From Streptomyces sp. NBC_00536 (lineage in GTDB: Bacteria; Actinomycetota; Actinomycetes; Streptomycetales; Streptomycetaceae): DNA of 64,000 bases. Position 1 is the stretch's first letter. Each line of letters begins with the position of its first letter. The stretch is from positions 2,356,001 through 2,420,000 of the forward strand of contig NZ_CP107819.1 in the NCBI RefSeq assembly GCF_036346295.1, given 5' to 3'. Both the position numbers and the translations under genes were made by a program. Of the stretch, positions 2,060 through 16,437 are shown piece by piece. The notes beneath the pieces were generated by a model. That model searched no databases and was not told the origin of the DNA. It saw only the letters and a list, made by a program, of their open reading frames with translations.

Positions 2060-5000
2060 CTAGGCCCGGGGTACGCGCGCCAGCGCGGCCCGGATGGTCT
2101 GCGCGGGGTCGGGCACGTCCAGGCCCAACTGCCGGAGCAGTTCCACGATCTCGTGCAGGGTCTTGCCCCGCTCCTCGGCCGCTTCGCACAGGACCTGGAG
2201 GGAGAAGTCACGCGATGTCGGCACGTCACCCTCCGCCTTCCTGCTCATCCCGATCAGCTTCCACGCCTCTCGCTCGGACAGTCCCTCCGGCAGGGAGGCG
2301 TGGGACACTTGGAGCCGGTAGACCTGCAGGCGCCTCGCCAACACCGCGGGCGTGACTTGCAACTCGTAGGCGACGGCGACCACATGGGCGAGGGGTACCG
2401 TCGCACCGACGTCGAGGACATGCCAGGGAAAGATGCCCCCGTGCAGTACGTCCCGGTCCAGATCGGTCGGGCGCTTCGGTACCTCCAGCGGCACCCGGAA
2501 CCCGTACGCCCTCAGCCGGGCGATCCGGTGCCGCATCCTCTCCGGCGATTCCCAGAATCCGTCGAAGACCTGGACGTAGGAGAGCGGCTCTTCCGGGTCG
2601 AGGAATCCGGTGTTCACCCTGTCGGACAGAACGTCGACGTCCGCTTGCGCCACGTGGGGCGCCATCACCCGGGGGCCACCGAACCCGAGCGCCTCCAGAC
2701 GGTCGATTACCTCTCCCGGCCGCTCCTGCGACCGTTGCGCGACCGCGAGGACATGGCCGGGTGTCGCGGCGCGGGACCGCTCCAACCAGGACGGCTTCCC
2801 GTTCCCGCCCACGCTCAGCAGTGCGACGAGCTCCTCCCCTGGGTGTTCCGGGAGCCCGGCGGCGTCCGGCCGGAGGCCATGGGCTGCGAGCCGTAGGCAG
2901 ACTTCGGAGACGGCCAGCCCGGAGTCCAGGCTCGCCTTGGCGAGGTGCCCGGCGGGAACCTCGGACCCGGGCATGAAGCACGCACCGCCGTGACGCTTCG
3001 GGTCGAGCCGGATCAGAGGCTCATGCTCGGCCGTCTCGCACATCTCCACCACGTCCTGCGGCACCTCGCAGCCGAACCCGCGCAGATGGGCGGCCGCTTC
3101 GGCGGGCCCCTTCCGGCACTCGCGCACGGCCACCATGAGGGCGGCGGTCGTGACCGGCCCGCAGTCCGGACGGATTCCGCCAGAAATCGCGTCAAAAACG
3201 CGGCTGTCGACCGTGGTCAGACGGGCGTCCCGCGTCCAGTTCGCAGGAGAGAGTCCGGGAAAACCGAGAGCATCGGCCTGCCGGGCGACGTCCCGCGGGT
3301 CCGCCCGGAATCCCCGCGCGATACGAGCGATGTCATTGAGATCCAGATGCACCTTGCTGTTCCGCACCAGCACCTGATCGGAGGGCAGTGCGCTGCGGAG
3401 CCCCTGTACCTCACCGACCTCGGGACAGCATTCCACCAGCGTGGACATCGTGGCTTGCGGGCGTTGGGCGAGGACCCGCCAGAGAAGGATGTGGTCGGGC
3501 ACGGTATCGAGCCATTCCACCTCCGATGTGTCCAGGTCGCCCATCCTCCTGCCGGACCGGAGGATGAAGACATCGGCCGGGAAGAAACCCACGTCGCCTC
3601 CTCCCAGGGCCGCACCCCCCACGAGGAAGCGCCGTCCGCTCGCTGCCAGCGCGGTTGTCACGATGTCCGCCAGCGGCGCGCTCGCGGTAGCGACCCGGCA
3701 CAGCCACGCGTAGTCCGAGAATTCCGGCTCACCGCCCGCGAGGACGTGCGCGGCACCCTCCAACAGCCCTCGTACGACCGGCTCGACATCGTCGATGACG
3801 TTCCTGCGGTCCACCGAGAGCCGGGCCGGGGACCACGGGCCGGTCAGGTTGATCACCGCACCGACCAGGCCGCGCCCGGCAAGCACCCCAGCGCTCTCGA
3901 CGGGGTCCACCACCAGCCCGTCCACCAGCAGCGCGCCCCCGCGCTCACACCACAGGACGTGCGCACCGGCCGGAGCTCCGACCCATTCCCGCACCGTGCC
4001 AGACGCCGACAGCCCGAACTCGCGCGGGTCGTAGTCCGCCCGGGGCTTGAACCGGCCGGCGGGCCAGACGGTGCCCTCGCCACCGTCCTCCGCCGTCGTC
4101 TCGAACTCGGCGATCCCCAGCAGCCGTTCCAGCACCCCCACACTGGACCACCCCTCCGGCAGCAGCCCCGGGCGCAGCCTCAGCCGGATGGTCGTCCCCG
4201 CCTCGCGCCCGCGCAGGGCGGTCTTGACGATGCGGAACAGGTGGCCGGGGCCGCAGATGGACACCTCGTAAACCGGGCCGAAGCTGCCGTCCGGGGCCAT
4301 CCGGCAGGTGGTGACGCTGACCTCGTCGGCCAGCATGAAGTAGCTGAGCACCCCGATCCCGAACCGGCTGTTCGGATAGAGGGTGACCGGAGGGTCCAGG
4401 GCCTCCCAGGCCGCCCGTTCCAGCTTGAACTCCAGCTGTTCGGCGAAGCGCGCGCCCGCCTGGGCGAAGACCCCGCGGAGTTCCGCCTCGCCCATGCCGA
4501 CGCCGTTGTCGGTGCACTCCAGGTAGCCGACGCCGTCCGCGTCGACCCCCTGGACGAAGGAGATCCGTCCCTCGTAGCCGCTCTGGTGGCGCCCGGCGGG
4601 CGGGTGGGTCCGGTCGAGGTATTCGCTGCGCGCCCGCCGGTACCGGCAGGCGTCCAGCGCGTTCTGGTACAGCTCGCGGACCGCCAGGTCGCGGTCCTTG
4701 TACAGCTCGATGCCCATGGCCAGGTCCCGGAACCGCCTGCCGTCGCTGCGGAACCTCGCGTACCCGTCGAAGGCCCCGTCCGCCGCCGTCACGGCGTCCG
4801 CGGACAGCCGCACGGGCAGGACCGGCAGGGGATCGGTGATCCGGTCCCGGGCGGTGCGCCGGACCGCGTCGAGCACCTCGTCGACCCGCCCCACGTATTC
4901 GCGGAGCCCCTCGACCACGGCCTCGTGGCGGCACTCCGCCCGCAGCACCGGCAGCTCGGGGGAGCCGCCCCAGGCCGCCTCCCGCAGGGTCCGGTGCAGC

Positions 5001-5962
5001 TCGACGAGGTTCACGGGGTGCGGGATGGCGAGGTGCTCGGCGACGATCCCGGGCATCGCGGTCATGCCGGGGGTCATGGCGTGCCCGAGCGCCCCCAGCA
5101 GCATCAGCCGCTGTTCGCGGATCAGCTGGGGACCGTCCGCGGTGCGGACCCGTTCCTCGGCGGCGAGCTGGCCCAGGAACTCGGGATGGCACACGTCGGG
5201 CCCGCGCCGCAGGCCCTGGAGCAGGGCGGTGATCCGGCGCGGGGCGAGCACCTCACCAAGCGAGGCGGCGGCCCCTGCGCCCAGGCCTTCGAGCAGACCG
5301 GCCACCGACCGGGGGTCGGCGAACTCGCGCTGCTGGACCAGCCAGCGGTGGAACAGCCACCACCCCGCCTGCGCCTGCGCCTCCCCCTCCGGGCTCCGCA
5401 GGGCCCGCTGCACCAGCGTCTCGTCCTGGTCGACGAAGACCTCGTACGCCCTGCGGTCCGGCCCGGCGGCCTCCTCGGGCCGCAGGCTCCAGGGGCGGAT
5501 CCCGGCCAGCAGGGCGGCCCGCTCCAGGTAGTGCACCCGGTGCAGGAAGGGCAGCAGCACCAGCAGGGCCGCCTCGGCGGGGTACAGGTCGAAGCCGGGG
5601 CTGCGGTCCGGTTCGCCCAGCAGCAGTTCGATCTGCTCCAGGAAACGCGAAGGGAGCCCGGGATCGGCCCACGGGTCCGCCGCCAGTTCCGCTTCCAGCA
5701 CGTCCCGCCGCTCGGCGAGCACGGCCAGTACTGCGGCCACCGCGTCCCGGCCGGCCCGGCACTCGCGGCCGCCGCCCACGTGCCGCCAGACCCCGGCTCC
5801 GTCCGCCCTCCGCAGCCAGTCGTCGGCCGCCGCCGGGTCCGGCCCCGGCGGGGTGGGCGGCGACGTCCACACCGACAGGTTCGAGATCGTCTGCGCCTGC
5901 ACCACCACCCCGGCGACCTCGTCGCCGATCACGGTGTTGCGCACCGTCCCCTGCTCGTCCAC
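2060..5962 (-). CDS. Hsp90-like ATPase with amyloid-like N-terminal motif and C-terminal winged-helix-like repeats
   Basis: A ~1300-aa protein. Residues 5-26 hold an N-x3-G-x4-G-x3-Q pattern (RNTVIGDEVAGVVVQAQTI). Residues ~40-400 are helical. A GHKL/Hsp90 ATPase follows: RELYQNALDA near 431 (catalytic Glu and Mg-binding Asn), TDNGVGMGE near 487, and the glycine loop SRFGIGVLSYF near 536. From ~860 to the C-terminus are repeated units of about 65-80 aa, each with an amphipathic helix ending like RLEALGFGGP, RLRAYGFRVP, LRQLGLDVP. This order fits the Hsp90 plus wHTH-repeat proteins predicted in actinobacterial conflict systems. The GTG at 5962 is chosen because GGGGCGGGA precedes it; a GTG at 6001 has no ribosome site. 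The target is unknown, and no obvious effector lies next door. Confidence 0.75.
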   Translation of the reverse strand: MDEQGTVRNTVIGDEVAGVVVQAQTISNLSVWTSPPTPPGPDPAAADDWLRRADGAGVWRHVGGGRECRAGRDAVAAVLAVLAERRDVLEAELAADPWADPGLPSRFLEQIELLLGEPDRSPGFDLYPAEAALLVLLPFLHRVHYLERAALLAGIRPWSLRPEEAAGPDRRAYEVFVDQDETLVQRALRSPEGEAQAQAGWWLFHRWLVQQREFADPRSVAGLLEGLGAGAAASLGEVLAPRRITALLQGLRRGPDVCHPEFLGQLAAEERVRTADGPQLIREQRLMLLGALGHAMTPGMTAMPGIVAEHLAIPHPVNLVELHRTLREAAWGGSPELPVLRAECRHEAVVEGLREYVGRVDEVLDAVRRTARDRITDPLPVLPVRLSADAVTAADGAFDGYARFRSDGRRFRDLAMGIELYKDRDLAVRELYQNALDACRYRRARSEYLDRTHPPAGRHQSGYEGRISFVQGVDADGVGYLECTDNGVGMGEAELRGVFAQAGARFAEQLEFKLERAAWEALDPPVTLYPNSRFGIGVLSYFMLADEVSVTTCRMAPDGSFGPVYEVSICGPGHLFRIVKTALRGREAGTTIRLRLRPGLLPEGWSSVGVLERLLGIAEFETTAEDGGEGTVWPAGRFKPRADYDPREFGLSASGTVREWVGAPAGAHVLWCERGGALLVDGLVVDPVESAGVLAGRGLVGAVINLTGPWSPARLSVDRRNVIDDVEPVVRGLLEGAAHVLAGGEPEFSDYAWLCRVATASAPLADIVTTALAASGRRFLVGGAALGGGDVGFFPADVFILRSGRRMGDLDTSEVEWLDTVPDHILLWRVLAQRPQATMSTLVECCPEVGEVQGLRSALPSDQVLVRNSKVHLDLNDIARIARGFRADPRDVARQADALGFPGLSPANWTRDARLTTVDSRVFDAISGGIRPDCGPVTTAALMVAVRECRKGPAEAAAHLRGFGCEVPQDVVEMCETAEHEPLIRLDPKRHGGACFMPGSEVPAGHLAKASLDSGLAVSEVCLRLAAHGLRPDAAGLPEHPGEELVALLSVGGNGKPSWLERSRAATPGHVLAVAQRSQERPGEVIDRLEALGFGGPRVMAPHVAQADVDVLSDRVNTGFLDPEEPLSYVQVFDGFWESPERMRHRIARLRAYGFRVPLEVPKRPTDLDRDVLHGGIFPWHVLDVGATVPLAHVVAVAYELQVTPAVLARRLQVYRLQVSHASLPEGLSEREAWKLIGMSRKAEGDVPTSRDFSLQVLCEAAEERGKTLHEIVELLRQLGLDVPDPAQTIRAALARVPRA

Positions 5963-6005: not shown

Positions 6006-6042
6006 AAGGGCCGCCGTCCCGGTATCCGGGGCGGCGGCCCTT
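6006..6042 (-). terminator. hairpin terminator downstream of glnA
   Basis: A 15-bp stem with one G-T pair (AAGGGCCGCCGTCCC paired with GGGGCGGCGGCCCTT) around a 7-nt loop. It lies 20 bp past the glnA stop and upstream of the Hsp90-like gene on the same strand, separating the two units. Confidence 0.75.
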
Positions 6043-15778: not shown

Positions 15779-15895
15779 CCCCCCATCCTGCCTCCCCGCC
15801 GAGCCGGTCCACCTTTAGCCCCGCCGGGGCCAAATCCAGCCCCGCCGGGCCACCCTCAGCTCGCCGGGGCCAAATCCAGCCCCGCCGGGCACCTC

Positions 15896-16165
15896 CAGCC
15901 CCGCCGGCGTTTGAGGCGCGGGGTCCGGGGCGGAGCCCCAGGCGCTGCCGCCACCTCCAGCCCCGCCTGGCACCTCCAGCCCCGCCGGCGCTTGAGGCGC
16001 GGGGTCCGGGGCGGAGCCCCAGGCGCCGCCGCCACCTCCAGCCCCGCCGGCGTTTGAGGCGCGGGGTCTGGGGCGGAGCCCCAGGAGCCCCGCAGGGGGC
16101 AACGGCCCTTGCGGGCCGCACCGGGCTCCGCCCGGACCCGCGCCTCAAACGCCGGCGAGGCTGGA
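15896..16165. repeat. GC-rich palindromic intergenic repeats
   Basis: Three direct copies of a ~48-bp unit (GCCGGCG-TTTGAGGCG core followed by GGGGTCCGGGGCGGAGCCCC) begin at 15896, 15977 and 16039. One inverted copy lies at 16121-16165. This is the common Streptomyces intergenic palindrome family. It fills most of the ~640 bp between the TIGR01777 and VIT1 genes; no gene is seen in that gap. Confidence 0.85.
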
Positions 16166-16307
16166 GATGGCCCGGCCGGGCAAGGCATGCCCGGTGGGCG
16201 AGGCTGAAGCTGCCCGGCCGGGCAAAGGGTGGCGGCGGGCGCGGCTGGGATGGCCCGGCGGGGCCGAAGGGGGCCCGCGGAGGCGGAGGGCGGCCCCGGA
16301 GGGCGGC

Positions 16308-16437
16308 GGTCAGGTGGAGCCGAGGGCCGCCCCGCAGGGGGGCGGTCAGGTGGAGCCGAGGGCCGCCCCGCAGGGGGGCGGTCAGGTGGAGCCGAGGGCC
16401 GCCCCGCAGGGGGGCGGTCAGGTGGAGCCGAGCCAGG
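16308..16437. repeat. 36-bp tandem array including the VIT1 stop codon
   Basis: Units of 36 bp start at 16308, 16344, 16380 and 16416. Three are complete and near identical; the fourth is the real 3' end of the VIT1 gene. Each full unit repeats the last codons and TGA of the gene plus a hairpin (CCGCCCC-n5-GGGGCGG, for example 16327-16345). The array therefore acts as a triple terminator-like structure on either strand. Confidence 0.9.

Follow-up and report, generated by a model that had tools for sequence, protein, structure and literature searches.

Bacterial amyloid signalosomes, as reportedly set out by Dyrka et al. in 2020, comprise a BASS motif, an NLR and a Bell effector. The gene described here lies in the window (the whole 64-kb stretch of DNA that was analysed) and encodes an Hsp90-type protein. 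Its common ground with the signalosomes, as far as the consulted part of PMC7889193 presents them, is the layout of a large ATP-binding receptor with a short motif at its N-terminus and a small helical protein with a related motif on its tail; it differs from them in that the ATPase is of the Hsp90 type, with no Pfam match to NB-ARC, NACHT or TPR. NLR-like and Bell-like pairs of the signalosome kind occur in the window genome too. In the working proposed below, where assembly of a receptor templates an executor, the protein would also be akin to fungal NWD2/HET-S and PNT1/HELLP and to the mammalian RHIM necrosome (PMC7889193, in part), a likeness of proposed working; Pfam gave no RHIM match. 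The BASS3 motif of Streptomyces atratus forms foci that are lost in two Q-to-P mutants, according to the available part of PMC9815663, and the same portion of the 2021 review (PMC7889193) asks whether signalling amyloids of fungi and bacteria act in NLR-independent pathways.

In the titles and abstract openings searched, which came mostly from outside subscription journals, no bacterial amyloid motif was linked to a protein of the Hsp90-like or iHD-CE type. The terms hsp90 and ghkl are absent from the available portions of PMC8195603 and PMC7159879, and the name iHD-CE did not occur in the literature searched. By domain content, the protein agrees with the Pfam iHD-CE (PF24401) and wHTH-HSP90_Na-assoc (PF24410) proteins, the same domains being matched above the curated cut-offs (324.8 bits against 27 and 98 bits against 23, respectively), but neither model extends over the N-terminal motif. 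With the Hsp90 chaperones HtpG and TRAP1 it has the N and M domains and the ATP-site residues in common; unlike them, it carries an iHD-CE domain ahead of the core and helix-turn-helix repeats after it, and no C-terminal dimerisation domain was noticed in it.

Genomic setting and domain organisation

By ORF reading, the gene occupies 2060..5962 on the minus strand, from a GTG start at 5962 to a stop at 2060, and encodes 1,300 aa. Upstream of it lies GGGAAAGGGG, whose end is 8 bases from the GTG (read by eye). The upstream neighbour is a glutamine synthetase gene, and a terminator-like hairpin, likewise read by eye and assigned to neither strand, is located between the two genes at 6007..6040. 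A search of the 9.15 Mb genome at E ≤ 0.001 returned no second copy of the Hsp90-type gene. Elsewhere in the window, positions 15803-16432 hold densely packed tandem repeats, rich in GC, whose periods are 19-81 bases.

The only Pfam families in the protein are iHD-CE, HD-CE and wHTH-HSP90. The iHD-CE domain, overlooked in the initial annotation, spans residues 49-394 (4781..5818, minus strand) and was matched at E 9.5e-97 over profile positions 1-349 of 349. The Hsp90 N and M domains follow at residues 407-745 (3728..4744, minus strand). The complete GHKL/Hsp90 ATP site that had been read from the letters was borne out, all three motifs being found on the minus strand: QNALDA at residue 433 (4649..4666), the ATP/Mg site with N434 and, slightly upstream, Glu430; DNGVGM at 485 (4493..4510), the nucleotide-binding site; and FGIGVLS at 534 (4343..4363), with the lid glycines. 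Across the 40 rows of alignment A3, the QNALDA site is invariant, as are D, G, G and M of the second motif and F, G, G and V of the third. NCBIfam gave an HSP90 match over the ATPase region that fell below threshold. In the structure model the core adopts the Hsp90 N and M fold; when the whole model was searched, the alignments of the Hsp90 structural matches listed ended at model residues 240-466, and helix-turn-helix pairs came next. Arg719, within LSVDR, may stand for the arginine of the Hsp90 M domain. An NLR identity of the receptor was considered and dropped, given the Pfam result for NB-ARC and NACHT and a structure model that is that of an Hsp90.

The C-terminal part (residues 861-1300; 2063..3382, minus strand) consists, by Pfam and the structure model, of seven tandem units of ~63 aa with helix-turn-helix pairs of the PF24410 type. 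Repeats had been described at the outset for the last ~440 residues with a unit size of 65-80 aa, of which the repeats hold and the size does not. Three stretches of the protein match PF24410, every one of the seven units has helices in the model, and an eighth, more divergent unit may precede them. Of the winged-helix fold that had been proposed for these units, the helix-turn-helix pairs are present; the wing is not established, because strands in the modelled repeats span only one or two residues.

The N-terminal motif and the heads that replace it

The RHIM/BASS-like motif at residues 7-31 (VRNTVIGDEVAGVVVQAQTISNLSV; 5870..5944, minus strand) is delimited by its conservation, its leave-one-out score and its match to the tail of a second protein, P0005. 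It reads N9-x3-G13-x4-G18-x3-Q22, which upholds the pattern given in the initial annotation and moves it from the span of residues 8-26 stated there. A scan of genome contigs yielded 52 loci with relatives of the gene, in 22 of which the motif lies directly N-terminal to the iHD-CE domain. Its N and Q are invariant in all 23 aligned rows (the 22 relatives and the window), and the best segments of the motif-bearing full proteins are mostly 42-53% identical to the window protein (35% for L064).

With the window row removed from the profile, the window motif scored 21.7 bits and the next ORF of the window 1.8. This leave-one-out profile gave 28 matches above 10 bits among 13,167 ORFs from the flanks and the window, with the window ranking 24th of the 28, and 0/65,835 among shuffled ORFs; by the full motif profile, five of the 28 are neighbours, in the loci L042 and L038, and the other 23 belong to the family. 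Close relatives were defined as the 19 family genomes with an Hsp90-type match above 700 bits, and the motif is present in 17 of these, with scores of 12 to 51 bits. When the eight genomes that supplied the profile were excluded, together with G152, whose sequence is identical to L036, the motif was present in 9/10 of those that remained. A recognisable motif is absent from two of the 19, G152 and G123, where other heads take its place. Judged by sequence, the motif is real and beyond chance. In the close relatives L036, L041 and L022 (the last from G123), a different N-terminal head (NNEF..FVxMGRxI; NRIDGGQFQGPVFLVGGD) sits where the motif is usually found, perhaps representing other signalling motif classes.

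The amyloid-signalling-like N-terminus proposed initially is retained as a signalling-like motif on an Hsp90-type ATPase. Of the comparison with amyloid profiles that had been suggested as a check, the Pfam part came out negative: at E ≤ 10, through HMMER filters that discard most weak matches, Pfam matched none of 34 motif segments to RHIM or to any other family. In a direct comparison, the Frankia BASS3 peptide (from the available part of PMC8086366) and the window motif were similar at chance level.

The N-termini of 51 relatives were scored with head models trained on the same rows (motif 22, caspase 5, HTH 6), by which 22 carry the motif, 6 a caspase, 12 an HTH-like head and 11 none of these, with zero overlap. 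Of the six proteins in which a caspase replaces the motif, five had trained the caspase model, and those five were confirmed by Pfam. Peptidase_C14 exceeded the Pfam cut-off in 5/9 N-termini examined, and HTH_31 was matched below its cut-off in two of the nine. The caspase dyad motifs GHG and D-x-C are present in 6/6 aligned caspase heads. In a quick tree built from 50 Hsp90 cores (L070, L078 and L087 left out; three HTH labels assigned by eye), the five head classes require 7 changes, against a minimum of 4 and a shuffled mean of 24. One group of 25 contains 22 of the 23 motif rows and three degenerate ones, with L064 outside, and the proteins with a caspase head branch separately, together with three Lentzea proteins. 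The HTH-like head occurs in L058, L059, L061-L063, L065-L068, L070, L080 and L084, mostly Actinomadura relatives.

We read the N-terminus as the output end mainly because relatives fuse a caspase at the motif's place. The helix-turn-helix units of the array, and the HTH-like head in 12/51 relatives, would also suit a regulator whose repeats bind DNA and whose motif merely helps oligomerisation, but a protein-sensing scaffold accounts better for about seven such units attached to an ATPase that has relatives with caspase heads, and we regard a DNA-binding role as highly improbable.

Motif-bearing proteins in the same genome and beside relatives

The initial annotation had seen no adjacent effector and had suggested that one could be encoded elsewhere in the genome, traceable by its matching motif. 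The searches bore out both points: no other ORF of the window scored above 1.8 bits, and the motif alone, searched against the whole genome at E ≤ 10, returned itself and one other place, the C-terminal tail of P0005 (E 1.83, 48% identity), a candidate effector of 149 aa at G000:C1:3524122-3524571, 1.16 Mb from the Hsp90-type gene. The signalosome arrangement, in which the receptor's N-terminal motif recurs at the effector's C-terminus, is thereby found at 12 identities in 25 ungapped residues (score 54; 0/2,000 shuffles as high) and a genome-search E of only 1.83. The window motif scored 48 with the NLR-like P0003 (0/2,000 shuffles as high), 36 with P0006 (34/2,000), 33 with P0002 (70/2,000) and 27 with P0004 (27/2,000); in direct comparison, the other tails, those of the four Bell paralogs L173-L176, were similar to it at chance level.

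Motif profile A1 (E ≤ 10) matched 11 places in the genome, namely the window gene, P0003 (0.016), P0004 (0.66), six noise-like matches and, last of the 11, P0005 and P0006 (both E 9.3); the P0002 motif was not among them. A Bell profile that included P0005 and was free of Hsp90 rows recovered from the genome, at E ≤ 1, P0005, the four paralogs, the P0006 motif and then the Hsp90-type motif (E 0.61).

P0002 and P0003, with the motif at their N-termini, are encoded within ~10 kb of P0005, and a second pair, P0006 and P0004, is located elsewhere. P0002-P0004 were labelled NLR-like by the P-loop in each; P0003 and P0004 have TPR and NB-ARC matches, the latter (19.1 and 19.4 bits) short of the 23.5-bit cut-off, and P0002 has a TPR match only. 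The AF2 model of P0005 places helices within residues 3-101 and gives residues 105-141 a pLDDT <50, so that P0005 is modelled as a small, Bell-like helical bundle with a disordered, motif-bearing C-terminal tail. L176 (G000:C1:7523344-7523805), a P0005 paralog of the same genome (E 3.7e-11 with the Bell profile), ends in VQSGDRNVQVNRF, which shares 10/13 residues with the BASS3 peptide of Frankia; aggregation of this peptide is reported in the consulted part of PMC8086366. The BASS3-like tail of this paralog probably ties the P0005-type helical domain to published Bell effectors.

At L042 (Streptomyces olivochromogenes), two small proteins bear a C-terminal ISGGTQxGPVLQGRD, and ISGG-type motifs open two NB-ARC/TPR proteins. 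One of the small motif genes begins ~0.8 kb away from the Hsp90 gene, and a transposase-fragment-like ORF (by eye) separates the two; the motif of this Hsp90 protein is ISGGTQIGPVVQ. At L038, a small motif gene lies ~0.8 kb past the Hsp90 stop and adjoins a motif-bearing NB-ARC/TPR gene, and at L054 the motif of an NB-ARC/TPR gene is weak, at 5.9 bits. Hsp90 and Bell-like genes are near each other in these two, L042 and L038, of the 22 motif-bearing loci (flanks ≤10 kb, some shorter), and are not adjacent in the window genome. At L145 (G152:C6:265836-265901), a motif of the window type was seen by eye C-terminal to a TIR-like domain, making this protein a possible further effector.

Motif profile A2, which includes many rows from the same 28 relative-bearing genomes, gave at least three matches at E ≤ 1 in 28/28, of which one each may be the Hsp90 itself. 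Of the matches listed, 39 were fetched; 32 lie in open frames of ≤265 aa, and 19 are Bell-like with a C-terminal motif (by eye). In 18 genomes, Hsp90 and Bell motifs from the same genome had a similarity of 843, compared with 778 on average under permutation (sd 37, p 0.042; kinship ignored). A genome's own Bell set ranked first in 4/18, two of which, G301 and G305, are near-identical relatives, and last in 2/18, the window genome being fourth. Bell type I occurs in 186/297 family genomes (E ≤ 1e-15) and was not significantly commoner alongside a close relative (15/19 versus 171/278 genomes, one-sided p 0.098). Given the weak within-genome pairing and the non-significant co-occurrence, a loose shared motif code is a better fit than strict pairing of each Hsp90 with one Bell protein.

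Eukaryotic Hsp90 tends plant and animal NLRs. The N and M architecture, and the similarity of the motif to both P0005 and P0003, would be compatible with a chaperone-like brake, whose Hsp90 core would retain or take apart the assemblies that NLR-like and Bell-like proteins make through their motifs; we judge this quite improbable, as a caspase with an intact dyad at the motif's place in relatives is more in keeping with an output module than with a client hook, and the helix-turn-helix repeats come after the M domain in the model. It also seems unlikely that the motif is a plain docking peptide, recruiting a Bell-like or NLR-like partner through one-to-one pairing of strands, with neither amyloid nor templating involved. 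Motif sharing indicates homotypic contact at most, and no amyloid profile was matched (Pfam, E ≤ 10), but a motif at NLR N-termini and small-effector C-termini is the published signalosome layout (PMC7889193, in part).

Proposed working and meaning

The domain order, ATP-site residues, Hsp90 N and M fold, repeats, conserved motif and caspase-headed relatives (His and Cys) are established by sequence or model. Because the motif resembles the P0005 tail and the NLR-like N-termini of the same genome, the Hsp90-type protein is likely an NLR-free immune receptor, and we think it somewhat probable that ATP closure of its core would gather the motifs and seed an amyloid-like template acting on the predicted membrane-damaging P0005. 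The repeats would serve as the sensor of an invader or a host signal, and the iHD-CE domain (inactive HD by its Pfam name) would connect the core to the head. ATP would close the Hsp90 clamp and so pair the heads, and the paired motifs would convert the tail of the Bell-like P0005, which is disordered and bears the motif; the helical bundle of P0005 would attack the membrane of its own cell. The Hsp90-type protein would serve in defence. P0005 would be common to it and the adjoining NLR-like proteins, and therefore two kinds of ATPase receptor would converge on one effector.

This receptor proposal draws support from motif conservation, the leave-one-out test and the unseen relatives, and from the P0005 tail match, the Bell profile listing, the L042 and L038 neighbourhoods, the caspase heads, the Hsp90 fold with its invariant ATP-site residues and the BASS3-like tail of L176. 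It is weakened by low match strengths (E 1.83 for P0005; E 9.3 for both Bell tails with A1), weak pairing (p 0.042), the Bell co-occurrence (p 0.098), the 1.16 Mb distance, the 2/19 close relatives without the motif and the absence of an amyloid profile match.

The Hsp90-type family is a concrete, conserved candidate for NLR-independent amyloid signalling, its possible partner being encoded by the window genome too, and the question posed in the consulted part of PMC7889193 is therefore reducible to a two-gene experiment. If the proposal is true, Hsp90 chemistry would act as an immune switch instead of assisting folding, and the relatives with caspase heads would provide a natural control. More tentatively, Hsp90-type ATPases might constitute a second, NLR-independent class of amyloid-signalling receptor in filamentous bacteria, with swappable heads (amyloid motif, caspase, HTH) and Bell effectors in common with NLRs, which would amount to a bacterial hub in which two ATPase switches share one prion-like language.
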